From the NCBI RefSeq assembly GCF_030063185.1, contig NZ_JASISP010000004.1, positions 1-42,752 on the forward strand: a DNA stretch of 42,752 nucleotides, in the 5' to 3' direction. The position numbers and the translations under genes are program-made. This stretch comes from Arthrobacter sp. H35-D1 (lineage in GTDB: Bacteria; Actinomycetota; Actinomycetes; Actinomycetales; Micrococcaceae). Below are positions 3,595-37,008 of the stretch, one piece after another; position 1 is the first letter of the stretch; each line of letters begins with the position of its first letter. The notes below the pieces were generated by a model. That model was not told where the DNA came from, did no database searches, and saw only the letters and a program-made list of their open reading frames with translations.

Positions 3595-3617
3595 TTTTTG
3601 ACGGAGGCGTTATTTTC

Positions 3618-10073: not shown

Positions 10074-10110
10074 GTCCGGTATTGAGAACTGCCCGCCTTG
10101 AAATTAAACG

Positions 10111-10178
10111 CAACTGGCCCGCAGCGCGGACCGAAGACCATTGCCAACAATGGTCCGGCCGCTGCTGCGGGCCAGTTG
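10111..10178. terminator. Large inverted repeat between convergent pdtaS and whiB1
   Basis: A 15-bp arm at 10111-10125 (CAACTGGCCCGCAGC) is exactly complementary to 10164-10178. A second nested hairpin, GACCATTG at 10136-10143 with CAATGGTC at 10148-10155, lies inside it. Symmetry and position between converging genes suggest a bidirectional terminator, though there is no long T-tract. Confidence 0.6.
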
Positions 10179-10188
10179 GTGCGAAAAG

Positions 10189-15524: not shown

Positions 15525-19066
<3,542 letters not shown>

Positions 19067-19070
<4 letters not shown>

Positions 19071-20700: not shown

Positions 20701-20810
20701 TAGTTGGCAACGGCCCTTAATATTGCCCGACAGCTTGTGAAGCGGGGGAAACCTCAACCGGGGCGCAACCCCGGCACAACGTGCGCCCGCCTTTAACCTT
20801 GGAGGAAATC

Positions 20811-22772
20811 GTGTCCTGGTGGACAACAGTGCCAGTCATGCTGGTATGTATTGCCCTGGTGCTCATTCCAGGCGGCGCCCTGGCGTATGCGCTTGGCTTT
20901 CGGCGTGTTTCCGTGCTGGGCCTGGCCCCGGTGCTGTCACTATCCCTGGTAGGGGTTGCAGCTGTCGGTGCCTCGTTTGTGGGCGTTGGTTGGAATATCT
21001 GGGCAGTTGTGGTCCTGGCTGTCGTCGCCTGTTTGGTGGCATGGCTGATTACCGACTTCCGCCAAAAGAGCACCAACAGGGCCGGTTTTCACCGCGATTC
21101 CTGGCTGACTTTGGGGGCCATGGTGGTGGGTGTCGCGGCCGGAGCATTGCTCATTGCCCGGCGCTTCATGCAATTGGTGGGGGCCCCGGACAACATCTCC
21201 CAACGCTACGACAACGTCTTTCAGCTCAATGCCGTTCGGCATATTTTGGACACCGGCGACGGGTCCACGCTCACGCTGGGCCAGATGGCCGGCGGACACG
21301 GGCTGGGGGCCGTTTATCCTGCCGTCTGGCACGACCTTGCCGCGTTGCTTGTCCAACTCACGGGAACCCCCATTGCTGTGGCGGAAAACGCCGTCAACAT
21401 GTGCGTTGCTGCGCTCATTTGGCCCATTTCGATTATTTTTCTCACACGGGTGGTGGCAGGGCCCAAACCGGTTGCGCTCATGGCGGCGGGCGTTGCCTCC
21501 GCCGGTCTGGTCGCCTTCCCGTTCCTGCTGCTGGTCTGGGGTCCGCTGTTCCCCAACCTGCTCTCCATCAGTGTTGTGCCGGCCGCCTTGGCCATCGTCA
21601 TTTTGCTGTGCAAGCTCTCCGACCAGCGGGAACGGCCCTTGCGGCTGTGGGCCACGACCGTGATCATGATTCCCGGGCTGGCGTTTTCCCACATGAGCGC
21701 CCTCGGCGCCCTGCTGGCCTTCGGCGCGCCCATGATTCTTTGGGCAGTGGGACTCCACGTGAAAGCGTTGGCGAAGGACAAGGCACCAATCCGAAAATAC
21801 GCAGTGGTTGCGGCCGCAAGCGTGGCCGGTCTGGCCCTTGGCTTGCTGTTGTGGCTGAGGCTTCGCCCCGACGATTACAGCGGATGGACGCCCCACACCA
21901 ACGTGCCGGGGGCCATCGGGGAAGTGGTCGCCAACGGTGTCATGGGCACTGAGGCAACGTGGGTGATTTCCATTCTTGCCGTTATTGGCGGTGCTGTGAT
22001 TCTGGGCAAGCGGACCCATATTTGGTGGTTGCTCAGCTACGCCGTGGCCGCCTCGCTGTACATAGCCGATGCGTCTTTGGACCGAGGCTTTATTAGGACT
22101 TTCCTGACAGGAGTCTGGTACGCGGACACGAACCGCGTTGCAGCGTACCTGCCCATCTTTGCCGTGGTCTTGGCAGCCATCGGATTCAAACGCGTTGTTG
22201 AAGTGGTTCTCTCAGCCGTATCGAGACTTCAGCGGAACACTTCCTGGTGGACCAAATCCATTGCCTTGGCGGTTGTGCTGGCCCTGTTCGGCTTGCTGGC
22301 CCTTGGCACGCAGGTGGGCACCATCCGGAACTACATCGGTGCACAAAAGGTGTTCTATGAACGGGACACAGGCTCGTCCATCCTCTCCGACGACGAGTAC
22401 AAGCTGCTGGCACGGATTGACAGCGAAGTGCCGGCAAATGCCGTCATAGCAGGCAACCCATGGAACGGCTCCGGTCTTGTCTACGCCTTCGCAGACCGAA
22501 AGGTGCTTCGCTACCACCTTTCCCAGCACGGCACTCCTGCCGAAGTGCTGGTGGAGGAAAAACTCAACACCGCAAATTCGGACCCTGCAGTGTGCAATGC
22601 CGTTAGGGAGCTCAACGTAAAGTACGTGCTTGATTTTGGCGAACAGTACCTGCTGAATCATCCCGACAGCAAAGATTTTGGCGGACTTCAGAATTTGGCC
22701 GGCTCCGGGACAGTGGAGTTGGTTGACCAGGAAGGGGCTGCGAAGCTGTACCGGGTCACGGCGTGTTGGTGA
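20811..22772 (+). CDS. Large polytopic membrane protein, DUF6541-like, possible GT-C type transferase
   Basis: A 653-residue protein with roughly a dozen or more hydrophobic helices over residues 1-510 and a soluble, probably extracytoplasmic C-terminal portion of about 140 residues. The first external loop after helix 4 has SQRYDNVFQLNAVRHILDTG (about 130-149). The acidic residue there and the overall plan recall GT-C glycosyltransferases that use polyprenyl-phosphate sugars, but no diagnostic motif proves it. GTG 20811 is chosen over GTG 20781 because GGAGGA lies 5 nt before it. It follows wzt by 110 nt in the same direction, so a step in galactan or teichuronic polymer modification on the outer face of the membrane is a reasonable inference. 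The 3' end carries a 14-bp tandem duplication. Confidence 0.75.
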   Translation: MSWWTTVPVMLVCIALVLIPGGALAYALGFRRVSVLGLAPVLSLSLVGVAAVGASFVGVGWNIWAVVVLAVVACLVAWLITDFRQKSTNRAGFHRDSWLTLGAMVVGVAAGALLIARRFMQLVGAPDNISQRYDNVFQLNAVRHILDTGDGSTLTLGQMAGGHGLGAVYPAVWHDLAALLVQLTGTPIAVAENAVNMCVAALIWPISIIFLTRVVAGPKPVALMAAGVASAGLVAFPFLLLVWGPLFPNLLSISVVPAALAIVILLCKLSDQRERPLRLWATTVIMIPGLAFSHMSALGALLAFGAPMILWAVGLHVKALAKDKAPIRKYAVVAAASVAGLALGLLLWLRLRPDDYSGWTPHTNVPGAIGEVVANGVMGTEATWVISILAVIGGAVILGKRTHIWWLLSYAVAASLYIADASLDRGFIRTFLTGVWYADTNRVAAYLPIFAVVLAAIGFKRVVEVVLSAVSRLQRNTSWWTKSIALAVVLALFGLLALGTQVGTIRNYIGAQKVFYERDTGSSILSDDEYKLLARIDSEVPANAVIAGNPWNGSGLVYAFADRKVLRYHLSQHGTPAEVLVEEKLNTANSDPAVCNAVRELNVKYVLDFGEQYLLNHPDSKDFGGLQNLAGSGTVELVDQEGAAKLYRVTACW

Positions 22773-22878: not shown

Positions 22879-22947
22879 AGTGGACAACTGCCGGTGGAAG
22901 CATGCTCCGGTCCGTCACCAAAGCTATAAAGAAAAGGCTACTAAAAC

Positions 22948-24237
22948 GTGAAGATTGCAGTTATCGCACTCGGTAAGATCGGGCTGCCATTGGCAGTTCA
23001 GTTTGCTTCCAAGGGGCACGAGGTTGTCGGGGTCGACGTCAACGCGACCGTAGTTGACCTGGTCAACGCAGGCAAGGAACCCTTCCCCGGCGAAGCGCAC
23101 CTGCAGGAGAAGCTTTCCGAGCTGGTGCCAGCTGGCAAGCTGCGCGCCACGACGGACTATTCCCAAGCGGTCCCCGGTGCCGACGCAGTGGTGCTGGTGG
23201 TGCCCTTGTTCGTTGACTCCGAGGCCAAGCCCGACTTTGGGTGGATGGATGGCGCCACGGCCGAACTGGGCAAGCACCTGACGGCAGGCACGCTTGTCTC
23301 CTATGAGACAACGCTGCCGGTCGGAACCACACGCAGCCGCTGGAAGCCCGCACTGGAGGCCGCCTCCGGCCTGGTTGAGGGCAAGGACTTCCACCTGGTG
23401 TTCTCCCCTGAACGCGTTCTCACCGGCCGCGTCTTTGCGGATCTGCGCAAGTACCCCAAGCTCATTGGCGGGCTGTCTGTTGCCGGGGCAGCCAAGGCGA
23501 CGGAATTCTACGAGTCCGTTCTGGACTTCGACGACCGCCCCGACCTGAACCGCCCCAATGGTGTCTGGGACTTGGGCTCGGCTGAAGCTTCCGAGCTGGC
23601 CAAGCTGGCCGAAACCACGTACCGCGATGTCAACATTGGCCTTGCAAACCAGTTTGCCCGTTTTGCTGCCAAAACCGGCATCGACATCTACCAAGTCATC
23701 GCGGCCTCCAACTCCCAGCCCTTCAGTCACATCCACCAGCCAGGCATCGCCGTCGGCGGACACTGCATCCCCGTCTACCCGCGCCTGTACCTGTGGAACG
23801 ATCCTGACGCCACTGTGGTCCGTGCTGCCCGCGCAGCCAACGCAGACATGCCCGACTACACCATCGGACTGCTCGAAGGCGCCTATGGCGACCTCACCGG
23901 AGCACGCGTGGTGGTGCTGGGTGCCGCCTACCGAGGCGGCGTGAAGGAAACCGCGTTCTCGGGTGTCTTCGACGCCGTGGAAGCCATCACCCGCCGCGGC
24001 GGCACAGCCATGGTGCAGGACCCCCTGTACACCGATGCCGAGCTGGAAAAGCTCGGCTTTGCCCCGTACCACCTGGGCGAGGCCGTTGACGCTGCCGTGG
24101 TGCAGGCCGACCACGCCGAGTACCGTGAGTTGACGCCAGCGGACCTGCCGGGGGTCAAGGCATTCATCGACGGGCGCAGGGTCAGCTCGGCCGAGCAGTG
24201 GGACGGCGTTACCTATCGCGTCATCGGCAAGGCCTAG
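22948..24237 (+). CDS. UDP-HexNAc 6-dehydrogenase (WbpA/WecC family)
   Basis: A 429-residue nucleotide-sugar dehydrogenase that oxidises C6 of a UDP-sugar to the carboxylate in two NAD-dependent steps. The NAD fold is at the start (IALGKIGLPLAVQFASKGHEVVGVD), followed by SYETTLPVGTT, the SPERVLTGR motif, ETTYRDVNIGLANQFA, and the active-site cysteine at about residue 273 in GGHCIPVYP. The family is shared by WbpA (UDP-GlcNAc) and WecC (UDP-ManNAc); the following acyltransferase, aminotransferase and 3-dehydrogenase genes favour a WbpA-like role, making UDP-GlcNAcA. The start is GTG with a weak AAAAGG about 10 nt upstream. Substrate assignment by context is inference. Confidence 0.85.
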   Translation: MKIAVIALGKIGLPLAVQFASKGHEVVGVDVNATVVDLVNAGKEPFPGEAHLQEKLSELVPAGKLRATTDYSQAVPGADAVVLVVPLFVDSEAKPDFGWMDGATAELGKHLTAGTLVSYETTLPVGTTRSRWKPALEAASGLVEGKDFHLVFSPERVLTGRVFADLRKYPKLIGGLSVAGAAKATEFYESVLDFDDRPDLNRPNGVWDLGSAEASELAKLAETTYRDVNIGLANQFARFAAKTGIDIYQVIAASNSQPFSHIHQPGIAVGGHCIPVYPRLYLWNDPDATVVRAARAANADMPDYTIGLLEGAYGDLTGARVVVLGAAYRGGVKETAFSGVFDAVEAITRRGGTAMVQDPLYTDAELEKLGFAPYHLGEAVDAAVVQADHAEYRELTPADLPGVKAFIDGRRVSSAEQWDGVTYRVIGKA

Positions 24238-24282
24238 AAAACCCAATTCGCCCGCCACACGGGCCGAGTCAGGAGAAACAGC

Positions 24283-24879
24283 ATGAGTTATGTAGCACCC
24301 AGCGCCGACGTGTCGGATCAAGCCGCGATCGGCGAAGGCACCAAGATTTGGCATTTGGCCCAAGTTCGCGAAGAAGCCGTGCTTGGTGAGAACTGCATCG
24401 TTGGACGAGGGGCCTATGTTGGAACCGGCGTGCGCGTCGGCGACAACTCCAAGATCCAAAACTACGCCTTGGTGTATGAACCGGCAGTCTTGGGCCATGG
24501 TGTTTTCATCGGACCGGCCGTCGTGCTGACCAATGACACCTACCCGCGCGCCGTCAGCCCCGATGGATCACTGAAAAGTGCCCACGACTGGGAACCGGTT
24601 GGCGTCACCATCGAAGACGGTGCAGCCATTGGTGCTCGGGCAGTTTGCATAGCTCCCGTAACAATTGGCCGGTGGTCCACCATCGCGGCCGGTTCAGTGG
24701 TGACGAAGGATGTTCCCGCCTTTGCCCTGATGGCCGGCGTACCAGCCCGTCGCCTGGGCTGGGTCGGGAAGGCCGGATTTCCGTTGAAGCTGGAGGACGG
24801 TTTTTGGGTTTGCCCTGAAACTGGAGCAAGATACATAGAGGATTCAAACTCCCTGAAAGAGGCAGAGGACAACGCATGA
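24283..24879 (+). CDS. Left-handed beta-helix N-acetyltransferase (WbpD-like)
   Basis: A 198-residue hexapeptide-repeat acyltransferase. Successive I/V-G-x-x-x turns run from residue about 5 to 60 and from 110 to 150. The NDTYPRAV loop (about 86-93) and the ending VPAFALMAGVPARRLGWV are hallmarks of WbpD-type enzymes that acetylate the 3-amino group of UDP-2-acetamido-3-amino-glucuronate. Trimeric cytosolic enzymes of this family use acetyl-CoA. AGGAG at 24271-24275 is 7 nt before the ATG, and the stop overlaps the aminotransferase start by 4 nt. The dehydrogenase upstream and the aminotransferase downstream define the pathway. Alternatives are other sugar O- or N-acetyltransferases of the same fold. 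Confidence 0.85.
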   Translation: MSYVAPSADVSDQAAIGEGTKIWHLAQVREEAVLGENCIVGRGAYVGTGVRVGDNSKIQNYALVYEPAVLGHGVFIGPAVVLTNDTYPRAVSPDGSLKSAHDWEPVGVTIEDGAAIGARAVCIAPVTIGRWSTIAAGSVVTKDVPAFALMAGVPARRLGWVGKAGFPLKLEDGFWVCPETGARYIEDSNSLKEAEDNA

Positions 24880-25967
24880 GCCAGGACTTCATTCCCGCAG
24901 CAAAACCGATCATTGGCGACGAGGAACGGGCAGCGGTCGACGCCGTCATGGCCTCCGGCATGTTGGCCCAAGGCAAGGAGGTGGCCAACTTTGAGCTCGA
25001 GTTCTCCAAGGTTCTCCTTGACGGCCGCGCCAGCGTTGCCGTGAACTCGGGCACCTCCGGCCTGCACTTGGGCCTGCTGGCCAGCGGGGTCGGCCGAGGC
25101 GATGAGGTCATCGTGCCCTCGTTCACCTTTGCCGCCACCGGCAACTCGGTGGCCTTGGCGGGGGCCACCCCCGTGTTTGCCGACATCGAGCTGGACTACT
25201 ACTCTCTCGATGTGGCCCACGTGGAGTCGCTCATCACGGACAAGACCAAGGGCATCATGCCTGTTCACTTGTACGGGCACCCGTTTGCCGCAGACGCGTT
25301 CGCCGCACTGTGCGACAAGCACAACATCGACCTGTACGAGGACGCGGCCCAGGCCCACGGCGCCGCTCTGAACGGCAAAAAAGTCGGCACCTTCGGCAAG
25401 TTCGGCATGTTCAGCCTGTACCCTACAAAGAACATGACCTCCGGGGAGGGCGGCATGGTCTCCACCTCGGATGCGACAGTGGAGCGCAACATGCGCCTGC
25501 TGCGCAACCAGGGCATGGAAAAGCAGTACGAAAACGAACTGGTGGGCTTCAACAACCGTATGACGGACCTGCACGCCGCCATCGGCCGGGTGCAGCTGAC
25601 AAAGATCGAGGCCTGGACCAAGAAGCGCCAGGAGAACGCCGCGTTCCTGACGGCCAACCTCGAAGGCGTGGGGACGCCGAAGGTCGCCGATGGTGCCGAG
25701 CACGTCTACCACCAATACACGATCCGCGTACCCGAGGGCCGTGACGAACTGCACGAGAAGCTGCGCAGCGAGTTCAACATCGGCTCCGGCGTCTACTACC
25801 CGGTCCCGAACCACCGCCTGCCCTCCTTCAACCGCACGGAAGACCTGCCGAACACGGAGATCGCGGCCAAGGAAGTGCTCTCGCTGCCGGTCCACCCGTC
25901 GCTGACCCAGGACCACCTGGAACGCATCGTCTCCGCCGTCAACACCATCATGAAGGCAGGTGCCTAG
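24876..25967 (+). CDS. DegT/DnrJ/EryC1 PLP-dependent sugar aminotransferase (WbpE-like)
   Basis: A 363-residue aminotransferase of the DegT family. AVNSGTSGLHLGLLA (about 50-64) forms the phosphate-binding region, FTFAATGNSVALAGATPVF follows, DAAQAHGA holds the PLP-contacting aspartate, and SLYPTKNMTSGEGG contains the Schiff-base lysine (Lys185). In a WbpA/B/D/E set it transfers an amino group, usually from glutamate, to the 3-keto sugar, giving UDP-2-acetamido-3-amino-2,3-dideoxy-glucuronate. The ATG overlaps the acetyltransferase stop (ATGA) and the next gene starts three bases after its stop, so these are one transcript. A different keto-sugar substrate cannot be ruled out from the sequence. 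Confidence 0.88.
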   Translation: MSQDFIPAAKPIIGDEERAAVDAVMASGMLAQGKEVANFELEFSKVLLDGRASVAVNSGTSGLHLGLLASGVGRGDEVIVPSFTFAATGNSVALAGATPVFADIELDYYSLDVAHVESLITDKTKGIMPVHLYGHPFAADAFAALCDKHNIDLYEDAAQAHGAALNGKKVGTFGKFGMFSLYPTKNMTSGEGGMVSTSDATVERNMRLLRNQGMEKQYENELVGFNNRMTDLHAAIGRVQLTKIEAWTKKRQENAAFLTANLEGVGTPKVADGAEHVYHQYTIRVPEGRDELHEKLRSEFNIGSGVYYPVPNHRLPSFNRTEDLPNTEIAAKEVLSLPVHPSLTQDHLERIVSAVNTIMKAGA

Positions 25968-25970: not shown

Positions 25971-26963
25971 GTGGCGAACTTGCGCGTAGGACTCATCGGA
26001 CTGGGCATGATGGGCCGCCACCATGCCCGCGTCATCCGCGAGGTCGACGGCGTCGAGCTCTTCGCCGTGGCCGACGCCTTTGGCGACCCGCACGGCGTGG
26101 CCAGGGAACTGCCCGTGTTGTCAGGTGTCGAGGAACTGATTGCGGCCGGCATCGACATGGCCGTAGCGGCCGTGCCCACCGGCATGCACGAGGAAGTCGG
26201 GCTGGCTTTGGCGGAGGCGGGAATCCACACCCTCGTGGAGAAGCCCATCGCCGCCAGCGTCCCCGCCGGGCAGCGCCTCGTTGAGGCATTCGCCGCCAAG
26301 GGCCTTGTCGGCGCCGTCGGACACATTGAGCGCTTCAACCCGGCGCTGCAGTCGCTGCGCAAGCGCATCGCCGACGGCGAACTGGGCGAGGTCTATCAGA
26401 TCGCCACCCGGCGGCAGGGCCCGTTCCCTTCGCGCATTGCCGACGTGGGCGTGGTCAAGGACCTGGGTACGCACGACATCGACCTGACCGCTTGGCTGGC
26501 GCAGAGCCGGTTTGCCTCGATCTTTGCCCAGACCACCACGCGCAGCGGGCGCCCGCACGAGGACATGGTTGCTGCCACCGGCAAGCTCGCCAACGGCATC
26601 ATCACCAACCACCTGGTGAACTGGCTTTCACCCATGAAGGAACGCCTCACCATCGTCACCGGTGAAAAGGGTGCGTTTGTGGCGGACACCGTCACCGCCG
26701 ACCTCACGTTCTACGAAAACGGCACCATCGCCACCGAATGGGACTCCATCGGAGCGTTCCGCGGAGTCTCCGAGGGCAACGTCACCCGCTTGGCCATCCC
26801 CAAGCCGGAGCCGCTGCGCACCGAACACGAAGCCTTCCGCGACGCCGTGCTCGGATTGCGCAACGACGTGGTGACCATGGCCGAAGGGCAAGACACGCTC
26901 GTTGTGGCCGAGGCCGTGCTGGAATCTTCCCGCACAGGACAGCCCGTGAGGATGCTCTCTTAG
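25971..26963 (+). CDS. Gfo/Idh/MocA sugar dehydrogenase (WbpB-like)
   Basis: A 330-residue NAD(P)-dependent oxidoreductase. The Rossmann motif GLIGLGMMGRHHARV is at residues about 6-20, EKPIA at about 92-96 carries the conserved catalytic-region lysine, GHIERFNPAL follows, and DLGTHDIDLTAWL gives the active-site His. The GHIERFNP and KDLGTHDID segments are typical of members that oxidise C3 of UDP-HexNAc or UDP-HexNAcA. With the neighbours this fits WbpB, which makes the 3-keto intermediate for the aminotransferase. A GnnA-like role on UDP-GlcNAc is the main alternative. The start is GTG three bases after the aminotransferase stop; the stop overlaps the glycosyltransferase GTG by one base. 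Confidence 0.85.
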   Translation: MANLRVGLIGLGMMGRHHARVIREVDGVELFAVADAFGDPHGVARELPVLSGVEELIAAGIDMAVAAVPTGMHEEVGLALAEAGIHTLVEKPIAASVPAGQRLVEAFAAKGLVGAVGHIERFNPALQSLRKRIADGELGEVYQIATRRQGPFPSRIADVGVVKDLGTHDIDLTAWLAQSRFASIFAQTTTRSGRPHEDMVAATGKLANGIITNHLVNWLSPMKERLTIVTGEKGAFVADTVTADLTFYENGTIATEWDSIGAFRGVSEGNVTRLAIPKPEPLRTEHEAFRDAVLGLRNDVVTMAEGQDTLVVAEAVLESSRTGQPVRMLS

Positions 26964-28135
26964 TGGCAGCACACAAACCGTTGAAGGTCGTCGTCGCCAC
27001 AAGGCTTTTCACGCCTGAAGTGGGGGCGGCGGCCTTCCGCTTGAGAGCCCTGGTTGACGGACTCGTCGAACAGGGCGCAGAAGTCCAGGTCATCACGACC
27101 AAGCCGCCACGGGGGAGCAGACCGTTCAAGCCCACCTACGGGCTCAGCCGGTGGCCCGTGCTGCGTGACTCCGGCGGCAACGTCCGCGGTTACGTCCAGT
27201 ACCTCAGCTTTGATGTCCCCGCCTTCTTCAGGCTCCTTGCCGCGCGTGCCGACGTCGTTGTTTCCGAGCCGCCGCCCACCACAGGTGTGGCAGTGGCGCT
27301 GTCCTCGCTGCTGCGGAAGCGCCCTTATGTTTACTACGCTGCCGATGTGTGGACCGAGGCGCTTTCTGCCATGCAGGTGCCTTCCATCGTGAAGAAGGTC
27401 ATGGGCGCCGTCGAGGGGAGGGTGCTTCGCCGTGCGGCGAAGGTTATTGCCGTCTCCGAGCCGGTGGCAACCCAGGTGGCCCATTTCAACGTGCCCGCCG
27501 GCAGGATCGAGGTGGTCGGCAACGGCGTGGATACCGGCGTGTTCCGTCCGGACGGCACTGTGGCTACCACCGCGAACCCGTACTTTGTCTACACGGGAAC
27601 CATGAGCGAATGGCAGGGAGCGGACATCTTTATCCGCGCGCTGCCGCTTGTCCGCGAGCGGTTCCCCAACGCCGAGCTGAGGTTCTTTGGCCAGGGCGCC
27701 GACGAAGACCACCTGTCTGCCCTTGCCACCGAGACCGTGCCCGGGGCCGTGCACTTCGGCGGGGTTGTGCCACCAGCCGACGCCGCGGGGTGGATCCGCG
27801 GGGCCGTGGCGGCACTTGTTAGCATCAAGCCGGGTCAAGGCTACGACTTTGCCAAGCCCACCAAGATCTACGCGGCGGCAGGCTGCGGCACCCCCGTAGT
27901 ATTTGCGGGACAGGGCGACGGTGCAGCCATCGTCGAGTCCGGCCGCTTGGGCGCAGCGCCCGCCTACGAGCCCCGCAGCGTGGCGGACGCCATGATCGCG
28001 GTATTGAAGGACCCCGACCACGGCGGGACCGAGTCCCGCGAAGCACGAGTCCGGTGGGTGGCGGAAAACGCTTCCCTGAAAGCTTCGGGCCAAGCGGCTG
28101 CGCAAGCCATCTTGAAGGTGCGGACACAACCCTGA
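26963..28135 (+). CDS. Glycosyltransferase family 4
   Basis: A 390-residue GT-B fold retaining glycosyltransferase. The N-terminal acceptor domain begins VVVATRLFTPEVGAAAFRL, then SEPPPTTGVAVALSSLLRKRPYVYYAADVWTE. The donor domain carries IEVVGNGVDTGVFRPDG, YTGTMSEWQGAD, and the terminal FAKPTKIYAAAGCGTPVVF segment that replaces the usual EX7E loop. The frame is open upstream to 26738, but GTG 26963 is chosen because it overlaps the preceding stop by one base and the protein aligns with the family start. It is the last gene before the C5-epimerase-like gene and is the best candidate to add the diacetamido-uronic acid residue; that is inference from position. Confidence 0.85.
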   Translation: MAAHKPLKVVVATRLFTPEVGAAAFRLRALVDGLVEQGAEVQVITTKPPRGSRPFKPTYGLSRWPVLRDSGGNVRGYVQYLSFDVPAFFRLLAARADVVVSEPPPTTGVAVALSSLLRKRPYVYYAADVWTEALSAMQVPSIVKKVMGAVEGRVLRRAAKVIAVSEPVATQVAHFNVPAGRIEVVGNGVDTGVFRPDGTVATTANPYFVYTGTMSEWQGADIFIRALPLVRERFPNAELRFFGQGADEDHLSALATETVPGAVHFGGVVPPADAAGWIRGAVAALVSIKPGQGYDFAKPTKIYAAAGCGTPVVFAGQGDGAAIVESGRLGAAPAYEPRSVADAMIAVLKDPDHGGTESREARVRWVAENASLKASGQAAAQAILKVRTQP

Positions 28136-28140: not shown

Positions 28141-29184
28141 ATGATCGATCTGCAAGTTCCGCCGGTACCAGAAGTGCAGACTCGGCGTCGGCCGGAGCCG
28201 GGACCGCCGCCCATCGCCCGTCGTCGGCACCTTGCCCGGACCCTGCTGGCGCTGGTTTTGGTTGTCGCCGTCGGTTCGGTCCTCATTGTCTTCAGGGCTG
28301 AAATCTGGGGACCGCAATTCAACCACTCGGGTTATTCACTCAGCCGTGACGGGCAGTCCCCGTACATTGGCAACTACGTGATTCCGTTGACGGATACCAC
28401 TTGGGGTGAAACAAGCGAGGACGACGTCCTCATTACTCGGGTTGGTAATGAAGCCGTCTATCATCCCGTGAACTCGGCCTGGTACATCAATCAAATGCTC
28501 ACCTCGTTCAAGGAATCGAATAACCCGGAATATTTGGACCGGGCGATTGCCACCGCAAAATACCTCATCAACGTCTCGGCAACCGATGACAGGGGAGCCA
28601 TTTGGTTCCCTTATCGATTCGGCCATGATGTGAAAACACTTCGTTTGGGAGCTCCCTGGCATTCGGGCATGGCCCAGGGCATGATGCTGTCCACCTTCGT
28701 GAACCTCTACGAGGCAACAGGAGACAAGTATTGGAAGAAAATGGCGGCTGGCACCGTCAAGTCGTTTGACCAGCCCAAGGTGGAATCCGGGCCCTGGTTC
28801 ACCAACGTCATTGAGGAGGATGGGAAGAAGTTCGTCTTTTACGAAGAATATCCGGCACTGGCCGAAGAACAGAACACCCAGGTGGTCAACGGCCACATTT
28901 ATGCCCTCTATGGGCTCTACGACTATTACAGAATTACCGGTGACAAACGCATTGAATGGTTGTTTGACGTGGGGGCATCAAGCATTCGCGATTCCTTCGA
29001 TGCCTACCGGAATCCCGGCCAGGCCAGCTGGTATTCCCCCACGGAGTATGGGCGCACCGTGTGGGGCAATCCGGAGAAGTATCACAAGGGTGTCATCAGC
29101 CAATTGCGAACCCTCGGTGAAATAACGGGAGATGTTGCATTCTGGCAGCAAGCCGATATTCTCTACTCCGACTTTCACGAGTAG
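28141..29184 (+). CDS. Membrane-anchored glucuronyl C5-epimerase-family protein
   Basis: A 347-residue protein with a basic N-terminus, one membrane anchor (residues 31-51) and an extracytoplasmic (alpha/alpha) domain of the D-glucuronyl C5-epimerase C-terminal family (Glce_C). Matches to the animal heparan-sulfate enzyme are recognisable in APWHSGMAQG (171-180), YEEYP (234-238), NGHIYALYGLYDY (250-262) and YHKGVISQL (314-322). Y314 falls where the animal enzyme has a catalytic Tyr-His pair. Such enzymes invert C5 of uronic acids already in a polymer. Here the neighbours make a diacetamido-uronate, so the likely reaction is D-manno (or D-gluco) to L-gulo (or L-ido) on the exported chain; this is inference. 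Base composition looks less GC-rich than the preceding genes. The start at 28141 is five bases after the previous stop, without a clear Shine-Dalgarno sequence. Confidence 0.8.
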   Translation: MIDLQVPPVPEVQTRRRPEPGPPPIARRRHLARTLLALVLVVAVGSVLIVFRAEIWGPQFNHSGYSLSRDGQSPYIGNYVIPLTDTTWGETSEDDVLITRVGNEAVYHPVNSAWYINQMLTSFKESNNPEYLDRAIATAKYLINVSATDDRGAIWFPYRFGHDVKTLRLGAPWHSGMAQGMMLSTFVNLYEATGDKYWKKMAAGTVKSFDQPKVESGPWFTNVIEEDGKKFVFYEEYPALAEEQNTQVVNGHIYALYGLYDYYRITGDKRIEWLFDVGASSIRDSFDAYRNPGQASWYSPTEYGRTVWGNPEKYHKGVISQLRTLGEITGDVAFWQQADILYSDFHE

Positions 29185-29194: not shown

Positions 29195-30259
29195 CTACTT
29201 GCCGAATGCCGCCAGCAATGCGTCCACCGTCCGTTGCGCCGCATGCCCGTCGCCATACGGCGTTGCATCCGTTGCAGCCGGTGCGGTGCGCTCCACGACG
29301 CCGGCCAGCAGGCTGAGGTCGTCGTTGACAAGGGCGTTCCAGCCCAACTCGACGGTCTCCACCCATTCGGTCTCGGGGCGGATGGTGGTGCAGGGGACAC
29401 GCAGCAGGAACGCTTCCTTCTGCAGTCCGCCCGAGTCTGTGACAACGCCGGCGCTGTTGGCCACCGCGTTGACAAGCTGTGGGTAGGCCAGCGGATCGCA
29501 GAGCCGCAGGGAGCCGGTGTTCAGGTCGATGCCGTGCGACTCGGCCAGCGCCCGCAGGCGCGGGTGGGCCAGCAGCAGCACCGGCTTGCCGAGGGCGGAA
29601 AGCGAGTCCACGATGGCCTTCAGCCGGGCGGGGTCGTCGGTGTTGTCGGGGCGGTGGATGGTGCACACGTAGTAGTTGCCGGCCGTGACGCCGTCGGGCA
29701 GCGGCTGGCTTTGGGCTGCGAGCTGGTCGCGGACGCTGTACAGCACATCGGTCATGACATCGCCCACCATGACCGAGCGTGCGGCAAGGCCCTCGGTGGC
29801 CAAATGGTTCATGCCCACTTCGGTGGGGGAGAGCAGGAGGTCGGAGGCATGGTCGGTCAGCACCCGGTTGTGTTCCTCGGGCATGCGCCGGTTGAACGAA
29901 CGCAAACCGGCTTCAAGGTGTGCCACGGGGATGTGGATCTTCACGGCCGCGAGGGCCGCTGCCAGCGTGGAGTTGGTGTCGCCGTACACGAGCACAACGT
30001 CCGGCCGGGACTCCTCAAACACTCTTTCCAGGCCTGCCAGCATGGAGCCGGTCTGCTCGCCGTGCTTGCCGGAGCCCACGCCCAGGTTGTAGTCCGGGGC
30101 GGGGATGCCTAGATCCTGGAAGAAGACGTCGCTCATCAGCTCGTCGTAGTGTTGGCCCGTGTGCACGATGACGTGTTCGGCGCGGCCGTCCATGGCCTTG
30201 GCGATGGGGGCAAGCTTCACAAACTGTGGGCGCGCGCCCACCACACTCAAAATTCGCAT
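29195..30259 (-). CDS. wecB: Non-hydrolysing UDP-HexNAc(A) 2-epimerase (WecB/WbpI family)
   Basis: A 354-residue GT-B-like epimerase that inverts C2 of a UDP-2-acetamido sugar. It has GARPQFVKLAP at the start, HTGQHYDELMSDVFF, the HGEQTG motif, VYGDTNSTLA, HLEAGLRSFNRRMPEE, HPRLR, the UDP-contacting DSGGLQKEAF, and a PYGDGHAAQR ending. The HGEQTG and RSFNRRMPEE forms are those seen in WbpI-type enzymes of O-antigen clusters rather than in E. coli WecB. It would thus convert UDP-GlcNAc3NAcA to UDP-ManNAc3NAcA, completing the pathway whose other four genes lie on the plus strand. The alternative is UDP-ManNAc formation. Its stop is 10 nt from the C5-epimerase stop (convergent). Confidence 0.9.
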   Translation of the reverse strand: MRILSVVGARPQFVKLAPIAKAMDGRAEHVIVHTGQHYDELMSDVFFQDLGIPAPDYNLGVGSGKHGEQTGSMLAGLERVFEESRPDVVLVYGDTNSTLAAALAAVKIHIPVAHLEAGLRSFNRRMPEEHNRVLTDHASDLLLSPTEVGMNHLATEGLAARSVMVGDVMTDVLYSVRDQLAAQSQPLPDGVTAGNYYVCTIHRPDNTDDPARLKAIVDSLSALGKPVLLLAHPRLRALAESHGIDLNTGSLRLCDPLAYPQLVNAVANSAGVVTDSGGLQKEAFLLRVPCTTIRPETEWVETVELGWNALVNDDLSLLAGVVERTAPAATDATPYGDGHAAQRTVDALLAAFGK

Positions 30260-30268: not shown

Positions 30269-31456
30269 TTAATGGGTATCGCGCTGCTCCTTGGCAACCG
30301 GTGCGGGAAGGGGTGAGTCGTAGACGCCGGATCTGGAGCGGAGCCGCTCGTTCATGTAGTGCCGCACTACGGAATCGCCGGACACCAAGCTGCAGAACTT
30401 GTCAGTGAGCAGCTCCTCCTTCCGTCCGGATTTTTTGTGAAGAACGACGGCGTCACGCAGCTGCTGCTGGTCCTGCGCCTTGGCAGCGGCTCGGCACAGC
30501 GTTGCGTCGCGCCGTGAAAGTGCCGGGAGCGAACCACCGGCCAGCTCAAGAAGCTGCTGATGCGCCGATTTCCAAGCTGCACCATCAGCCTCCGACCACA
30601 CGGTGGCGGCAAGCGGCCCCGACATGGAACCTCGCCGCACCAGTGCTCCAATGCCATGGACTCGCAGGAGTTTGAGCGCGATCGCCCGGCGTTCCTGCTT
30701 TGGGGCGGAATGGATCCACACAGTCCCAACCAAGGCGTCCAGCCACAGGAACTCCTCGGCCAGGGGGCGAATGGCGCTGGTCACCCTGGTGCCACCGGAG
30801 GCGTCGGTTTGGTGGTAGGCCGGGCTCGAATAGGGGTAGCTGATGCGGCCTCCCCGGAACCACAGCCTGAGTGCTGCCTCCAGGTCCTCGCCGATCTCAA
30901 TTCCTTCCGCGTATCGAAACCCGCAGGCGAGGAGCGCGCTGCGGCGCAGCAATCCGTAGGGGACGCTGCGGTACGCCAGCCCGTCCTTGACCGCGTCCAG
31001 GACTGCGGGTTTTGACGGGCGAATTCGGGGGGATCGAAGAATTGAGCCTTCCGGCGTCCGCAGCGGCGCAATGACGGCGGCAGCGCCCTGGGCAACGGCC
31101 GCCTTCCACCAGGCCGCCAGCGACCCTGGTTCCAGGTAGTCGTCGGAGTCCAGGAAACTTAGGAACGTGGCGGAACTGTTGTCGAGGGCGGCGTTGCGCG
31201 GGCCGGCCGGGGAATTGATGCCGTCTGCATGGCCAAGCCACGTGACGGCGTCGTTCGTGGCATGTTCGGAGGAAAGGCCGGCCTTGATGTCCGCGATGGC
31301 AATGTTGTGGCAGACCACGGTGGTGCGGAGATCCACTCCCAGCGCTGACAATTCGGCACGCTGGCCCAGGATTGAGACAAGTCCCCGTTCCAGCGGCCGT
31401 GCCGGATCGTGCACGGGTATGACTACTTCAATGCTCTGGCTCATGCTTTGGCTCAT
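30269..31456 (-). CDS. Glycosyltransferase family 2
   Basis: A 395-residue inverting GT-A glycosyltransferase. The N-terminal IEVVIPVHDPARPLERGL begins the nucleotide-binding fold and the metal site is DSDD (103-106) in LSFLDSDDYLEPGSL. The GEDLEAALRLWFRG segment supplies the catalytic-base ED. The C-terminal 150 residues are helical and of unknown role. It lies 9 nt upstream of the 2-epimerase gene in the same direction, so they form a two-gene operon. CAGGAG about 10 nt upstream supports the start; the first 24 coding bases are a near-perfect 12-bp tandem repeat, so the start codon is duplicated (MSQSMSQS). It is a divergent paralogue of the gene at 31512. Confidence 0.85.
   Translation of the reverse strand: MSQSMSQSIEVVIPVHDPARPLERGLVSILGQRAELSALGVDLRTTVVCHNIAIADIKAGLSSEHATNDAVTWLGHADGINSPAGPRNAALDNSSATFLSFLDSDDYLEPGSLAAWWKAAVAQGAAAVIAPLRTPEGSILRSPRIRPSKPAVLDAVKDGLAYRSVPYGLLRRSALLACGFRYAEGIEIGEDLEAALRLWFRGGRISYPYSSPAYHQTDASGGTRVTSAIRPLAEEFLWLDALVGTVWIHSAPKQERRAIALKLLRVHGIGALVRRGSMSGPLAATVWSEADGAAWKSAHQQLLELAGGSLPALSRRDATLCRAAAKAQDQQQLRDAVVLHKKSGRKEELLTDKFCSLVSGDSVVRHYMNERLRSRSGVYDSPLPAPVAKEQRDTH
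31433..31456 (-). repeat. 12-bp tandem repeat at a start codon
   Basis: ATGAGCCAAAGC followed by ATGAGCCAGAGC, one mismatch. It gives the GT2 protein a repeated MSQS start and two possible initiation codons. Confidence 0.7.
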
Positions 31457-31511: not shown

Positions 31512-32621
31512 GTGGACAACGATATTCAGGACTCAGCGTTGGTGGACGTGGTCATCGCCGTGCATACGCCCAACCGCCCCATTGAACGCACTGTCGCCTC
31601 CCTGATGGCTTCGGGACTGTCCACGGAGACTGGGTCGCCCAACCGGCTGCGCATCACCGTGGTCTGCCACAACACCGCGGTGGAGCCGATCCGCGCCCGT
31701 GTGGCGCCCGAACATCAGGGCCGGGTCCGGTTCGTGCACTTTGCCGATGGGATCAAGAGTCCGGCGGGTCCCTTCAACCATGGAATTTCCCTGGCCACCG
31801 GCACGTGGGTCTCAATTATGGGCAGCGACGATTCACTGGAGCCGGGTGCACTGGCGGGGTGGGTGCAGGCGGCAGAGAAGGACCGTGCTGACGTGCTCAT
31901 TGCGCCCATGGCCCATGCCGATGGGAGGGCCATCCGGACACCCGTGGTGCGCAGGCTCCGAGCGGCTGCCCTTGACCCGATTGCCGACCGCCTCACCTAC
32001 CGCACCGCACCGCTTGGGCTCATGCGGCTGTCCCTGGTTCGTGCGCTGGGCCTGGATTTCCCCACCAGGTACGCCACGGGGGAGGACCAGTCGTTTTCGG
32101 CCAAGCTGTGGTTTTCCGGGGCGAGCGTGAGCTACGGACGTGGCCTGCCCCGCTACGTGGTGCACGACGACGCCGCGGTCCGCGTGACGGCCACTCCTCG
32201 CAGCGTCACGGAAGATTTGGCCTTCGCCACGGATCTGGTGGGATCGGACTGGTTTGCCGGACTTGGCTCGGCGCAGCGGGCTGCGATCGTCACAAAGCTC
32301 CTGCGCATCCACCTATTTGGACACATCATGCTGCGCGCGGATGCCGGCACGTGGGATTCAGCCGATGCAGCAGAAATGGCTGGCGCGGCGCGGACCATGA
32401 TGTTCGCGGCCCCGGGAGCGGCCCGGCCGTTGTCGTTGGCGGACAGGGCGCTACTCGACGCGGTGGTCCGGCAGGAGCCCAACTCTCGCGTGATGAAGAC
32501 TCTGACTACACAGCGGCGCACCTTCACCAACCCGCGGACCTGGTTGCCGCGAGATCTCTCCCAGTTGCTCCACCCGGAGGCTCCGTTGCGGTTCATGGGC
32601 GCCTCCGCACTGGTGTCGTAG
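31512..32621 (+). CDS. Glycosyltransferase family 2, paralogue of the divergent neighbour
   Basis: A 369-residue GT-A enzyme. DVVIAVHTPNRPIERTVASL opens the fold, VVCHNTAVEPIRARV and FADGIKSPAGP follow, the metal site is GSDD (104-107) in SIMGSDDSLEPGALAGW, and GEDQSFSAKLWFSG is the acceptor/catalytic region. Each of these segments has a counterpart in the minus-strand GT2 gene 55 nt away, so the pair arose by duplication and inversion. The aspartate pattern differs (GSDD versus DSDD), which may mean a changed donor. The start is GTG with a -10 element six bases before it. A second GT (32687) follows 65 nt downstream. Confidence 0.85.
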   Translation: MDNDIQDSALVDVVIAVHTPNRPIERTVASLMASGLSTETGSPNRLRITVVCHNTAVEPIRARVAPEHQGRVRFVHFADGIKSPAGPFNHGISLATGTWVSIMGSDDSLEPGALAGWVQAAEKDRADVLIAPMAHADGRAIRTPVVRRLRAAALDPIADRLTYRTAPLGLMRLSLVRALGLDFPTRYATGEDQSFSAKLWFSGASVSYGRGLPRYVVHDDAAVRVTATPRSVTEDLAFATDLVGSDWFAGLGSAQRAAIVTKLLRIHLFGHIMLRADAGTWDSADAAEMAGAARTMMFAAPGAARPLSLADRALLDAVVRQEPNSRVMKTLTTQRRTFTNPRTWLPRDLSQLLHPEAPLRFMGASALVS

Positions 32622-32686: not shown

Positions 32687-33808
32687 ATGAAGATCCTGGT
32701 CATTGCCACTTGGTACCCGCACGAGGAAAACCCTGCCGAGGCGCCTTTCAACGCTGAACATGTCGAAGCCATCCGCGGCCAGGGCCATGAAGTCCGGGTG
32801 GTTCATGCACGTTTGGGAACTGCCCTGCGCATGCCGGAAGAGACCAACGGCCTGTGGGAAGGAGTTCCCGTGCGACGCGTGTTGGCCGACCCCAAGCACC
32901 CGGCAACTTTACTCGCCTGCGAACGCCTGCTTGCCCGGGAAATGGCCTGGGCCGACGTGGTCCACACCATGGCCTTCTCCTCCATCCTGCTGGCAGTGCC
33001 GGCCTGGTCCGCACGCACCATGGCGGGACGTGGCAGCCCCTGGGTGCATACCGAACACTGGAATGGCGTGGTGAATCCCGCCAGCGTCTCGCCCTTGTGG
33101 AAAAAGCTCTCCGGGTTGCGCCGTGTGTTGCGGTTCCCACACGTGGTGACGGGGGTGACGGGACAGCTCGCGGCGGAGATGCAACGGTTTGCCCGGCCGA
33201 ATGCCTCGCGGGTGGTGCCTTGTGTGGTGAAGGGCCGCGGACCGGTTGTGCCCGCCACCTTTGGAACGCCGCTGCGCTTGGTGGCTGTCGGCGGGCTCAT
33301 TGAACGGAAACGCCCGCTGGCCGCCATTGCAACTATCGCGTGGCTGCGCGACCACGGAACTGAAACGCACCTGGTGTGGGTGGGCGAGGGACCCCAACGG
33401 GCCCAGTGTCAGGCACTGATCGAGCAACTGGGCCTGGCCTCGAATGTCACCTTGGCCGGATCGGTCCGCCCGGCCGCAGTGGCCACCCACTTGTCCGCAG
33501 CGGCCTTGTTTTTCCTGCCCACCGCCCAGGAGAACTTTTTCACCTCGGCTGCCGAGGCACTGGCGGCCGGACGAGCCGTGGTGGCAACCCGTGTAGGGGG
33601 TTTTAGCGACTACGCCGATGATTCCAACAGCAGGCTTGTCGACGATGTCAGCCCCGAGGCGCTGGGAGCAGCCGTGTTGTCGGCTGCAGACGCATTCCGG
33701 GAGACTCCCGCCGGAGACATTGCAGACCCCATAAGAGCGCGATTTTCCCCTGCGGCGGTCGGCGAACTTTTTGATGGTGCATATTTGGCCGCCGTGGCCA
33801 GCGCCTGA
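32687..33808 (+). CDS. Glycosyltransferase family 4
   Basis: A 373-residue GT-B enzyme. The N-terminal Rossmann domain starts MKILVIATWYPHEENPAEAPF and includes VHTEHWNGVVNP, a form often seen in GT4 enzymes of capsule and teichuronic clusters. The donor domain has VAVGGLIERKRPL, VWVGEGPQRAQ, and an FLPTAQENFFTSAAEALAAGRAVVAT stretch containing the GT4 EX7E-like loop. No membrane segment is present, so it acts at the inner face of the membrane. AAGGAA is a few bases before the ATG. The leader contains a 16-bp tandem repeat. The acceptor and sugar cannot be deduced. Confidence 0.85.
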   Translation: MKILVIATWYPHEENPAEAPFNAEHVEAIRGQGHEVRVVHARLGTALRMPEETNGLWEGVPVRRVLADPKHPATLLACERLLAREMAWADVVHTMAFSSILLAVPAWSARTMAGRGSPWVHTEHWNGVVNPASVSPLWKKLSGLRRVLRFPHVVTGVTGQLAAEMQRFARPNASRVVPCVVKGRGPVVPATFGTPLRLVAVGGLIERKRPLAAIATIAWLRDHGTETHLVWVGEGPQRAQCQALIEQLGLASNVTLAGSVRPAAVATHLSAAALFFLPTAQENFFTSAAEALAAGRAVVATRVGGFSDYADDSNSRLVDDVSPEALGAAVLSAADAFRETPAGDIADPIRARFSPAAVGELFDGAYLAAVASA

Positions 33809-33897
33809 CCCCAGGTTCGTCGCGGCCAGGGCACGACACCGTGGCCCAGCTTGGGTCTGTTGGACTACACGACATCTTTAACAACGAAGGAAATATC

Positions 33898-35142
33898 ATG
33901 GCTGCACGCCGACTCGTCCTGCTGGCAAACCAGTACCCATATGTCAACGGGGACCACGTCTTCGTTGCAGCGGAGATGCCGGCCCTGGCGGCACACTTTG
34001 ATGAGGTGGTTGTGTTCAATTACGCACCCGGGGAGCCGTCGGAAATGGCCATCCTGCCCAGCAATGTGCGCTTCGGTGGAAGCCTGTACGGCATTCCGCG
34101 TGCTGAGAAAATCAAGGCATTGTTATCCCCGCGGAACCTGACGCGACTGGCCGGCATCACACTCATGGAAGCGCGAACAGGACGTTTGGCCACGAACTTT
34201 CGGTCCTTCGTGGCAGGGACGATCGCTGGCATGGGACTGGCAAACGACGCTCGCCTCAAAGACGCGCTCTACGAACGAGGCATTGAAACCACTGTGTACA
34301 GCTTTTGGGGGATGGGCATCGGAATGCTGGTGCCGTGGATCCGGCCCCGGATCAGTTCCGTCAACCTTCGGCTGCACCGCTATGACCTGTATGAGGAAGA
34401 GTCAGGCTATCTGCCGTTCCGACCCGGCCTGTTTCGGCGCACGGACAGAATCTTGGCGATTTCCGAATCCTCACGGCGCTACCTGCTGGAGAAGTATCCG
34501 CGTGAAAAACTGGCAGAAAAGATCGAAATCCGACGCTTGGGGAGTGCGGCACCCCTTGAGCCGGAGGTGCCATTGTCGGAAAGAACAGGAGACGAGGAAG
34601 CAGGGCGAATAATCGTCAGCTGCTCATATGTCATTCCTGTTAAACGTGTCGCCCGAATTTTGGATGCACTGGAAAAGATTCCGGGAGACACCCCACTGAC
34701 GTGGATACATTTTGGTGGTGGAATATTGGAAGAAGAGCTGCGGAATCGAGCTTCGGCTCAGATACGGCCGGGCCTGTCGATTCAGATTCGAGGCGCAACC
34801 CCGCATGAGGAAATTATCGACTACTACAGAACCCACAAAATTGCGGCTTTCGTCAACGTCAGCGCCTCTGAGGGTGTCCCGGTGAGCATAATGGAAGCCA
34901 TTTCGTACGGCATCCCCGTGGTTGCCACGGATGTGGGCGGCACCGCCGAAATAGTGGGCGGGCCACTCAAAACAGGCGAACTCGTACCTGCAGATTTTAC
35001 CCAAGACGAACTCGCGGAGAAATTGCTTCACGTGTTGTCGGCAGCACCGGGCACATATACACCCAAGGAGCTGTGGGCCAATCGCTACAATGCTGTAGTC
35101 AATGCGGAGGCCACGGCAAGTCTCATAGCCAGCAAACCCTAA
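33898..35142 (+). CDS. Glycosyltransferase family 4
   Basis: A 414-residue GT-B enzyme. The N-terminal domain opens RRLVLLANQYPYVNGDHVFVAAEMPAL, the pattern of GT4 members related to WsaF/capsular transferases, and contains NLRLHRYDLYEEESGYLPFRPGLF. The donor domain has VSCSYVIPVKRVARILDAL, WIHFGGGILEEEL and NVSASEGVPVSIMEAISYGIPVVATDVGGTAEIV, which carries the EX7E motif. ATG 33898 is preferred over the upstream frame-open start at 33841 because AAGGAA lies 7 nt before it. The gene is less GC-rich than its upstream neighbours and converges with the ABC exporter gene (12 nt between stops). Confidence 0.85.
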   Translation: MAARRLVLLANQYPYVNGDHVFVAAEMPALAAHFDEVVVFNYAPGEPSEMAILPSNVRFGGSLYGIPRAEKIKALLSPRNLTRLAGITLMEARTGRLATNFRSFVAGTIAGMGLANDARLKDALYERGIETTVYSFWGMGIGMLVPWIRPRISSVNLRLHRYDLYEEESGYLPFRPGLFRRTDRILAISESSRRYLLEKYPREKLAEKIEIRRLGSAAPLEPEVPLSERTGDEEAGRIIVSCSYVIPVKRVARILDALEKIPGDTPLTWIHFGGGILEEELRNRASAQIRPGLSIQIRGATPHEEIIDYYRTHKIAAFVNVSASEGVPVSIMEAISYGIPVVATDVGGTAEIVGGPLKTGELVPADFTQDELAEKLLHVLSAAPGTYTPKELWANRYNAVVNAEATASLIASKP

Positions 35143-35154: not shown

Positions 35155-37008
35155 TCAGGAGCTTTGATCGGGCACGGCCACCGGCGACGTCAGTCCGGCC
35201 AAGGCGGCCTGCTGCGCGAAACTTGAGTTGGCGGCAACCACTTCGTCAAACGTGCCCCGGGTCTCGATGGTTCCTTCACTCATGAAGAACACCTGAGCGC
35301 AGTCACGGATTGTGGACAGGCGGTGGGCCACCGAGATGACGGTTACTTCGCCATGGAGTTCATGGATGGCTGCGGCGACGGCCGCCTCCGTGGCAGTATC
35401 CAAGGCGCTGGTTGCCTCGTCAAGCACCAGCACCAGGGGGTTCATATAGAGGGCTCTGGCGATGCCAAGGCGTTGGCGCTGCCCGCCTGAAAGTGATCCG
35501 CCCCTTTCACCCACACGGCCGTGGATACCCTGTGGCCGGTTTTCAATCGTTTCGAGTAGCTGTGCCTTGGCAAGTGAGGTGCGGACGCGGTCCTCATCCA
35601 AGTCTGCTCCCCAAGACAGAGCGACGTTTTGTGCCACTGAACCGTCAAAGATGGCGACTTCCTGCGGAACGTAGCCCACCCTTTTTCGCCAATCGGCCAG
35701 CACGTCTTCCAGCGGGACACCGTCTAGGGTCATCGTTCCGCTTGACGGTACAAGTAGGCCCAGGAAGATATCGATCAGCGTCGACTTGCCTGCGCCGGAT
35801 TGCCCCACCACCCCTACTGAAGTGCCCAGCGGAAGTGTGAGGTTGATATTGGTTATTGCAGGGGTTTTAACCCCTGGATAAGTGAATTCAACGTTGCGTA
35901 GCTCAAGTGCTTTGGGGTCTCCCGAGATGGGAGTCTTGCCAAGAGTTTCGGCATTATTGCGGAACTCCTCGGCTTCGCGGATGTCTGCCATGACAAGTTC
36001 AGTGTAGGGCAGGGTGGACTGAACCAGCGTGACCTGTGACTGGATGGTGGTGAGCGCGGGGACCATCTTGAATCCCGCCAAGGCGAAAATTGCGACGGAA
36101 GACATGGCCGTTCCGATGCCACCGGTAAGGAAACCAACTGTGCCGATCAGTACGAAGCCGCCTATCAGCGCCATGTCAATCACAAACTTGGGCACCGTGG
36201 CGAGGAATCGAATGTTGGAGCGGGACCGTGCGGCCTTTTCCCTGCTGAGATAAACCACGTCGCCAACTTCCTCGGCCTTGTCCCTGAGCGTGATTTCCTT
36301 CAGTGCGGCCAGCATCTCCGCCACAAGGGTCGACATGCGCATGGCTGCGTCCCGGTTGACCCGTCCAGCTTCATACGATTTCCTGGACAGATACAGGTAG
36401 AGGAATGCAGCGATAATACCCAGATATATCACCGTAATCAGCGCTGTCTGCCATGAAGCAACGACCAATATAACGAACACCGACAGGAACGTAAGTGCCT
36501 GTGCGGGCAGGACCACGGCCGGAAACAACACCCCGGAAATCGTATTGGCAATTCCCACATCGATCATGCGGACTAGTTCACTCGTGGACCTGTTCTGACG
36601 TGAAATCCAAGGTGCTTTTATGTAGCTCTGAAAGAGCACCGTGCCGATCTCTAGTTCATAGTCTGCAAACTTCCTGGTGGAAACCCACTGCAGCCAGATA
36701 TTTAGAAACGACTTCAGGATCATGACGGCTGCTGCGACAATGAGGACAACCAGCCCGACGTTCTGAGAAATTTCGCCAGTGAGGGGCAGCTGCATCGTTC
36801 CACCGGCGGATTGCGTCTGCATGATTTGGTTCAGCACCAACGCGAACACTCCAAGAGCTGCAGCATCCAAAAGAACCAACACAGATGAGAGCGATGCGAA
36901 GAGGAGCAGAAACCTTCTCGCATTGGCGGGAAGCAACGGCAACAGCTGGCCAAGGGTGCGGCGCAGGTTTTTCAAGGTTTTACTCCATGACACAGTAGAA
37001 GAATCCAT
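35155..37008 (-). CDS. ABC exporter, MsbA/PglK-like half-transporter
   Basis: A 617-residue fused permease-ATPase. The transmembrane domain has about six spans (residues about 32-335) and the ATPase about 365-600: GQSGAGKST Walker A (near 402-410), Q-loop YVPQEVAIFDG, LSGGQRQRLGIARAL signature (near 503), Walker B VLVLDEATSALD and switch His in SVAHRLST. All catalytic residues are present, so it is an active homodimeric exporter. In envelope-polysaccharide loci such proteins flip lipid-linked oligosaccharides (PglK) or lipids (MsbA). It offers a second export route beside Wzm-Wzt, likely for a different glycan. It is the only minus-strand gene between 31.5 and 42.6 kb. Confidence 0.88.
   Translation of the reverse strand: MDSSTVSWSKTLKNLRRTLGQLLPLLPANARRFLLLFASLSSVLVLLDAAALGVFALVLNQIMQTQSAGGTMQLPLTGEISQNVGLVVLIVAAAVMILKSFLNIWLQWVSTRKFADYELEIGTVLFQSYIKAPWISRQNRSTSELVRMIDVGIANTISGVLFPAVVLPAQALTFLSVFVILVVASWQTALITVIYLGIIAAFLYLYLSRKSYEAGRVNRDAAMRMSTLVAEMLAALKEITLRDKAEEVGDVVYLSREKAARSRSNIRFLATVPKFVIDMALIGGFVLIGTVGFLTGGIGTAMSSVAIFALAGFKMVPALTTIQSQVTLVQSTLPYTELVMADIREAEEFRNNAETLGKTPISGDPKALELRNVEFTYPGVKTPAITNINLTLPLGTSVGVVGQSGAGKSTLIDIFLGLLVPSSGTMTLDGVPLEDVLADWRKRVGYVPQEVAIFDGSVAQNVALSWGADLDEDRVRTSLAKAQLLETIENRPQGIHGRVGERGGSLSGGQRQRLGIARALYMNPLVLVLDEATSALDTATEAAVAAAIHELHGEVTVISVAHRLSTIRDCAQVFFMSEGTIETRGTFDEVVAANSSFAQQAALAGLTSPVAVPDQSS

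Follow-up and report, generated by a model that had tools for sequence, protein, structure and literature searches.

The stretch of DNA analysed here (42,752 nucleotides of Arthrobacter sp. H35-D1, contig NZ_JASISP010000004.1; hereafter the window) contains on its plus strand, at 28141..29184, a frame that runs uninterrupted from ATG to TAG. These are the limits given in the original prediction, a reading of the letters alone that took the product for a relative of animal heparan-sulfate glucuronyl C5-epimerase (GLCE), anchored outside the cell and inverting C5 of an amino-uronic acid within a polymer. The family assignment is confirmed: C5-epim_C (PF06662) is the single Pfam domain above cut-off in the 347-residue protein (E 7.1e-31; 107.6 bits, cut-off 23.3), phmmer matches the protein to the solved GLCE structures of zebrafish (E 2.9e-10) and human (E 5.9e-8), and a profile built from 81 sequences reaches the same two proteins at 1.5e-31 and 3.5e-31, respectively. 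No other protein of the 4.46-Mb genome matches PF06662 at E 0.001. The motifs APWHSGMAQG, YEEYP, NGHIYALYGLYDY and YHKGVISQL are all present as predicted, although the spacing given for two of them was wrong by one residue, the true forms being NG-x2-YALYGLYDY and YH-x5-QL. The single N-terminal anchor is likewise borne out, with one hydrophobic stretch peaking at residues 35-53 and a helix at 24-56 in the structure model; arginines precede the stretch, so that an N-in/C-out topology is expected.

Besides this anchor helix the model consists of a helical domain and six short strands, and leaves no room for either the beta-hairpin dimerisation domain or the beta-sandwich domain of GLCE. Comparison with GLCE by fold and by alignment came out in favour of the prediction. 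Over the catalytic domain the modelled fold is that of GLCE, which stands ∼11 Z units ahead of the other folds listed. The catalytic residues of the human enzyme, E499, Y500, N510, Y560 and Y578 (PMC13308652), map by alignment to E236, Y237, N250, Y298 and Y314 in the window protein, so that all five are kept, the three tyrosines included. These columns fall outside the motif with which relatives were collected from genomes ([ATP]PWxS[GA][MI][AS]QG), whereas the invariance of the motif columns themselves is uninformative since the motif was fixed in the scan.

The epimerase gene is the last of an operon whose other members, all on the plus strand, are wbpA (22948..24237), wbpD (24283..24879), wbpE (24876..25967), wbpB (25971..26963) and a glycosyltransferase gene of family GT4 (26960..28135, family match; start chosen within the longer frame 26738-28135), with successive intergenic gaps of 45, −4, 3, −4 and 5 bp. 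The wbpA product is a UDP-HexNAc 6-dehydrogenase and the sole PF03721 match on the contig, and that of wbpD is a hexapeptide N-acetyltransferase with 3mqg, a sugar acetyltransferase of lipopolysaccharide biosynthesis and the entry nearest to WbpD, as top PDB match (E 2e-36). The wbpE product is a pyridoxal phosphate-dependent aminotransferase matched by the solved WbpE entries at E 2e-53, a score exceeded by ten other DegT-family sequences, and wbpB encodes a 3-dehydrogenase of the Gfo/Idh/MocA type (NF040723, UDP-GlcNAc 3-dehydrogenase, E 4.3e-62, below cut-off). These four assignments come from family and context, the scores lying below the NCBIfam equivalog cut-offs. Convergent with the operon and ending 10 bp from the epimerase stop codon is wbpI (29195..30259, minus strand), whose top PDB matches are UDP-2,3-diacetamido-2,3-dideoxyglucuronic acid 2-epimerases (E 1e-101; next molecule 3e-80), enzymes that act on UDP-GlcNAc3NAcA. 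All five enzyme types of the WbpABDEI pathway are therefore found at one locus, in agreement with the diacetamido-uronate locus of the original prediction, and the gene set predicts UDP-ManNAc3NAcA as its product. A cluster making the non-uronate UDP-GlcNAc3NAc was ruled out by the presence of wbpA, and a minus-strand frame at 22924-24498 was rejected as a gene, having no Pfam match and lying where wbpA is encoded.

Beyond wbpI follow a GT2-like glycosyltransferase barely above its Pfam cut-off (30269..31456, minus strand) and three further glycosyltransferases assigned by family match, of the GT2 (31512..32621), GT4 (32687..33808) and GT4 (33841..35142) types, all on the plus strand. The region also holds an acyltransferase gene and, on the minus strand at 35155..37008, an ABC exporter or flippase-like protein with membrane and ATPase domains that is a candidate glycan exporter. 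Just past the window end (L145) lie a polysaccharide pyruvyl transferase (PF04230; 3939-5117, minus strand) and an NDP-sugar epimerase/dehydratase (2645-3823, plus strand), and the first of these suggests that the glycan may also be pyruvylated. Upstream, the uronate cluster is adjoined by a galactofuran-type export module (UGM, GlfT2, ABC-2 permease and ABC ATPase; 15832-20700), and between that module and wbpA lies a gene for a 663-residue DUF6541 protein (20781-22772), which is 32-83% identical in those congeners where it is found.

A survey of the neighbourhoods of related genes for wbp genes had also been proposed with the prediction, and the association was found to recur. Among 395 genomes of the family, the epimerase occurs in nine, a close WbpI in 52 and both in eight (hypergeometric 4e-7), and among 396 genomes of the phylum the domain occurs in 31, WbpI in 60 and both in 28 (5e-23), counts that take no account of kinship and that, in the latter case, use a WbpI threshold of E 1e-80 which may admit plain UDP-GlcNAc epimerases. 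Within the family the two genes lie no more than 4 kb apart in six of the nine genomes (the window, G270, G284, G221, G199 and G209), while in G069 the distance is 16 kb, in G052 they fall on different contigs, and G032 is without WbpI. In two of these, G199 and G209 of another genus, the PF06662 protein (loci L023 and L024) is very divergent, with ∼25% identity to the window protein, and its gene sits 2.5-3.5 kb from wbpI in what looks like a distinct lineage of the pairing. At the phylum level 13 family codes contain the domain, and 11 of them, counted by eye, include a genome with both genes. For one such code, f25, six of the seven domain-bearing genomes were examined; wbpA, B, D, E and I are complete in four and cut by contig ends in two, and against the solved GlcNAc3NAcA epimerase the G413 WbpI gives a match of 1.5e-128.

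Among the best 80 of 244 relatives, for which loci were analysed individually, WbpI, WbpB or WbpE matches above threshold accompany the epimerase at 14, in Arthrobacter, Oerskovia, Microbacterium, Agromyces, Bowdeniella, Ornithinibacter, two other Actinomycetota, one Latescibacterota and one Chloroflexaceae; L074 was counted as a non-holder with its WbpI two bits short of the threshold (248 against 250). Gene order differs between the distant lineages. On a tree of 98 rows, made by a quick method and carrying a long-branch warning, 14 changes of the wbp label are required, at least seven of them forced by starred branches, from which it follows that the pairing has been made or kept more than once; the alternative label is less secure, as 28 of the 73 rows bearing it represent loci under 15 kb and four of those under 4 kb.

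Relatives also provide evidence on where the enzyme acts. SLH domains are fused to the epimerase, beside wbp genes, in all six f25 proteins examined (L147-L152); a single wall glycan could in this group serve both as SLH ligand and as the polymer that is edited. In G413 the neighbours of the epimerase gene include a LytR-CpsA-Psr gene and genes of the O-antigen ligase and polymerase types, and for L147 Wzy-type and LytR-CpsA-Psr genes are noted; the LytR-CpsA-Psr family generally links glycans to peptidoglycan. CWB2 repeats occur in 11 of the 81 sequences (nine inspected individually) and in a further protein from G618 (L155), and five of the nine are also wbp-linked (L067, L079, L081, L114 and L128). 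CWB2 motifs are described in Clostridium difficile as recognising the anionic wall polymer PSII (PMC4973711). Together with the anchor helix of the window protein, present as a hydrophobic stretch above threshold in 63 of 80 relatives, the SLH and CWB2 fusions disfavour a cytoplasmic epimerase acting at the nucleotide-sugar level.

Within the genus the epimerase gene is found in five of 23 genomes, one copy being broken. Thirteen congeners have wbpI without it, and in six of the eight examined the distance between the ends of the GT4 and wbpI matches is 43-186 bp (1.4-1.8 kb in the other two). Five of these six (L136, L137, L139, L141 and L142) are collinear with the window through wbpI, the two GT2 genes, GT4 and the ABC exporter. 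Congeners thus carry the same cluster lacking the epimerase, which makes epimerisation an accessory step. The positives do not form one clade on a tree of wbpA, E, B and I (three changes; one-clade test p 4.6e-18), so that presence in the genus is patchy. The broken copy belongs to G052, the nearest relative on that tree, which shares 93-98% identity with the window in the five wbp genes. Its epimerase resembles the window protein for about one-third only, to near residue 115, after which the contig continues with other genes, an IS-type integrase lies ∼3 kb away, and wbpI is found at the start of another contig. It is a natural disrupted version of the epimerase gene (L021, around 9734-10246 and 5766-6668; L143, 1-160). 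The four intact copies are under purifying selection, with proportions of non-synonymous differences (pN) of 0.16-0.20 and of synonymous differences (pS) of 0.69-0.82, the latter near saturation.

The family, fold and aligned residues of the protein, the place of its gene in the operon, the recurrent linkage to wbp genes, the wall-binding modules of relatives and the patchy presence come from computation, and polymer-level C5 inversion of an amino-uronate as originally proposed is supported; the substrate, the product, the identity of the polymer and action after export are inferred. The precursor UDP-ManNAc3NAcA would be formed by oxidation at C6 (wbpA) and C3 (wbpB), amination (wbpE), acetylation (wbpD) and inversion at C2 (wbpI), and ManNAc3NAcA would be built by the neighbouring glycosyltransferases into a teichuronic-acid-like wall glycan that is then exported. 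The epimerase, a type II membrane protein of the GLCE type, would act on the finished or growing glycan outside the membrane, removing the C5 proton of the uronate and returning one on the other face, with E236, Y237, N250, Y298 and Y314 involved by analogy with GLCE, and the likeliest change in the chain would be D-ManNAc3NAcA to L-GulNAc3NAcA. We give this reading a probability of roughly 0.6. With an anchored GLCE relative ending the operon and distant relatives repeating the pairing, these bacteria probably invert this uronate once the polymer is outside.

Several observations weigh against it. The co-occurrence figures disregard kinship, and in only eight of the 28 phylum genomes with both genes are these within 10 kb on one contig. 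No wbp gene was detected at the thresholds used in the flanks of 66 of the 80 individually analysed loci, an absence that is weak for the 26 shorter than 15 kb (wbp genes accompany 12 of the remaining 54), and an NDP-sugar dehydrogenase is present in the flank at only 10 of the 80; most flanks name no uronate and the wider family is therefore not tied to diacetamido-uronates. Within the same class, a genus with large genomes has the domain in seven of 199 genomes, at nine places, of which only three adjoin close wbp genes (G586, G821 and G858), G891 having a distant WbpE-like match alone. In 17 of the 80 relatives no hydrophobic stretch exceeds the threshold. Lastly, His is found in 66 of the 81 sequences at the position of V318 in the window protein, and T301 replaces the Arg of animal GLCE (human position 563), differences that, judged from the alignment, are compatible with another substrate but also with changed chemistry.

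The enzyme could instead act, still at the polymer level, on plain glucuronate (GlcA) of this or a different surface glycan, producing iduronate (IdoA) like the Bermanella enzyme, with the wbp genes supplying merely another sugar of that polymer. A bacterial member tested in vitro is described as forming IdoA from GlcA in de-sulfated heparan sulfate (PMC4432689). The genome has three further strong UDP-sugar dehydrogenase matches, so that GlcA could be present elsewhere in the cell, a finding that also tells against the preferred substrate. None of the three is on the contig of the window, however, and the wbp linkage recurs in distant lineages with differing gene orders; we regard this explanation as unlikely. 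Somewhat more doubtful again is inversion of GlcNAc3NAcA rather than ManNAc3NAcA, which would give L-IdoNAc3NAcA. This ring configuration is closer to the GLCE reaction, whose substrate is a gluco-configured uronate, and GlcNAc3NAcA is reported in the repeat of an actinomycete teichuronic acid and at the reducing end of the Streptomyces griseus polymer (cited and described, respectively, in PMC13274773), but the usual partner of the epimerase is wbpI, which converts the gluco precursor to manno. A lyase or glycoside hydrolase of a uronate polymer is improbable. The toroid fold houses such enzymes, lyases share the abstraction of the C5 proton, and weaker fold matches include GH8, GH76 and unsaturated glucuronyl hydrolase, yet GLCE leads by the Z margin given above with its five residues kept; the GH76 match to the window protein is weak and below the Pfam cut-off, and the GH76, GH127, GH47 and AGE matches of some members were set aside as weak superfamily echoes. 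That the gene is a horizontal acquisition in a chance neighbourhood, with no role in the glycan, has very little probability, since its lower G+C content (0.551 against 0.588-0.666 in the five wbp genes, with 0.564 in the exporter gene) and patchy presence are set against its 5-bp gap at the operon end, its purifying selection and the pairing repeated in other lineages.

If wall-glycan editing by the anchored epimerase is correct, GLCE-type epimerisation would be a general means of editing bacterial wall polymers, beyond animal glycosaminoglycans, a source of L-configured diacetamido-uronates with an enzyme class for making such polymers, and a single-gene switch in the type of wall glycan read by Streptomyces umbrella toxins. 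More tentatively, and somewhat against the odds, teichuronic-type polymers of 2,3-diacetamido-uronates may be edited after export throughout the Actinomycetota by heparin-type C5-epimerases held by an anchor, CWB2 or SLH, with independent gain and loss letting strains of the same backbone switch uronate stereochemistry and possibly escape lectins or toxins. The prediction is testable, as soil strains offer one cluster in natural forms with the gene, without it and with it disrupted. The literature search returned nothing on point for the product or for a C5-epimerase with teichuronic acid, most subscription papers lying outside its coverage, so that absence is not proven by it. Both the enzyme family and the sugar pathway belong to known kinds; what is new, and well supported as a hypothesis, is their union in one operon, the wall-tethered distant relatives and the clusters lacking only the epimerase.

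One close comparison is with animal heparan-sulfate GLCE (PDB 6hzz, 4pw2), with which the window protein has in common the E/Y/N/Y/Y active-site set, the helical domain that carries out catalysis, and probably action on a polymer. It differs in its ∼21% identity, in lacking the beta-hairpin and beta-sandwich domains (GLCE domains as in PMC13308652), in the threonine at position 301 and in a gene context of N-acetylated amino-uronate instead of GlcA. The glucuronyl C5-epimerase of Bermanella marisrubri is likewise a bacterial GLCE homologue and is described as able to act after polymerisation, although it was shown on GlcA in a mammalian polymer and its natural target is given as unknown (Raedts 2013, as described in the review PMC4432689). 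Agl32, a prokaryotic enzyme of haloarchaea, epimerises GlcA at C5 in a glycan that is already assembled, and its authors find in it none of the GLCE catalytic residues (PMC13308652), unlike in the window protein. Mannuronan C5-epimerases of the AlgG/AlgE type, whose manno-to-gulo inversion in a finished bacterial polymer (PMC4432689) would match the change proposed here, differ in fold from the GLCE-like helical window protein. AlgG and AlgE are beta-helix proteins. On the side of the sugar, S. griseus carries on its wall teichoic acid a teichuronic-acid-like polymer of GalNAc and ManNAc3NAcA that serves as umbrella-toxin receptor, and its utr locus encodes the same five precursor enzyme types (utrD/A/B/J/H) for an actinobacterial wall. 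The epimerases named in the available part of that account are UDP-sugar 2- and 4-epimerases, none of them C5, and the two sugars of the repeat are assigned the D configuration, while the contents of utr-type clusters differ between species and include unspecified "other epimerases" (PMC13274773).
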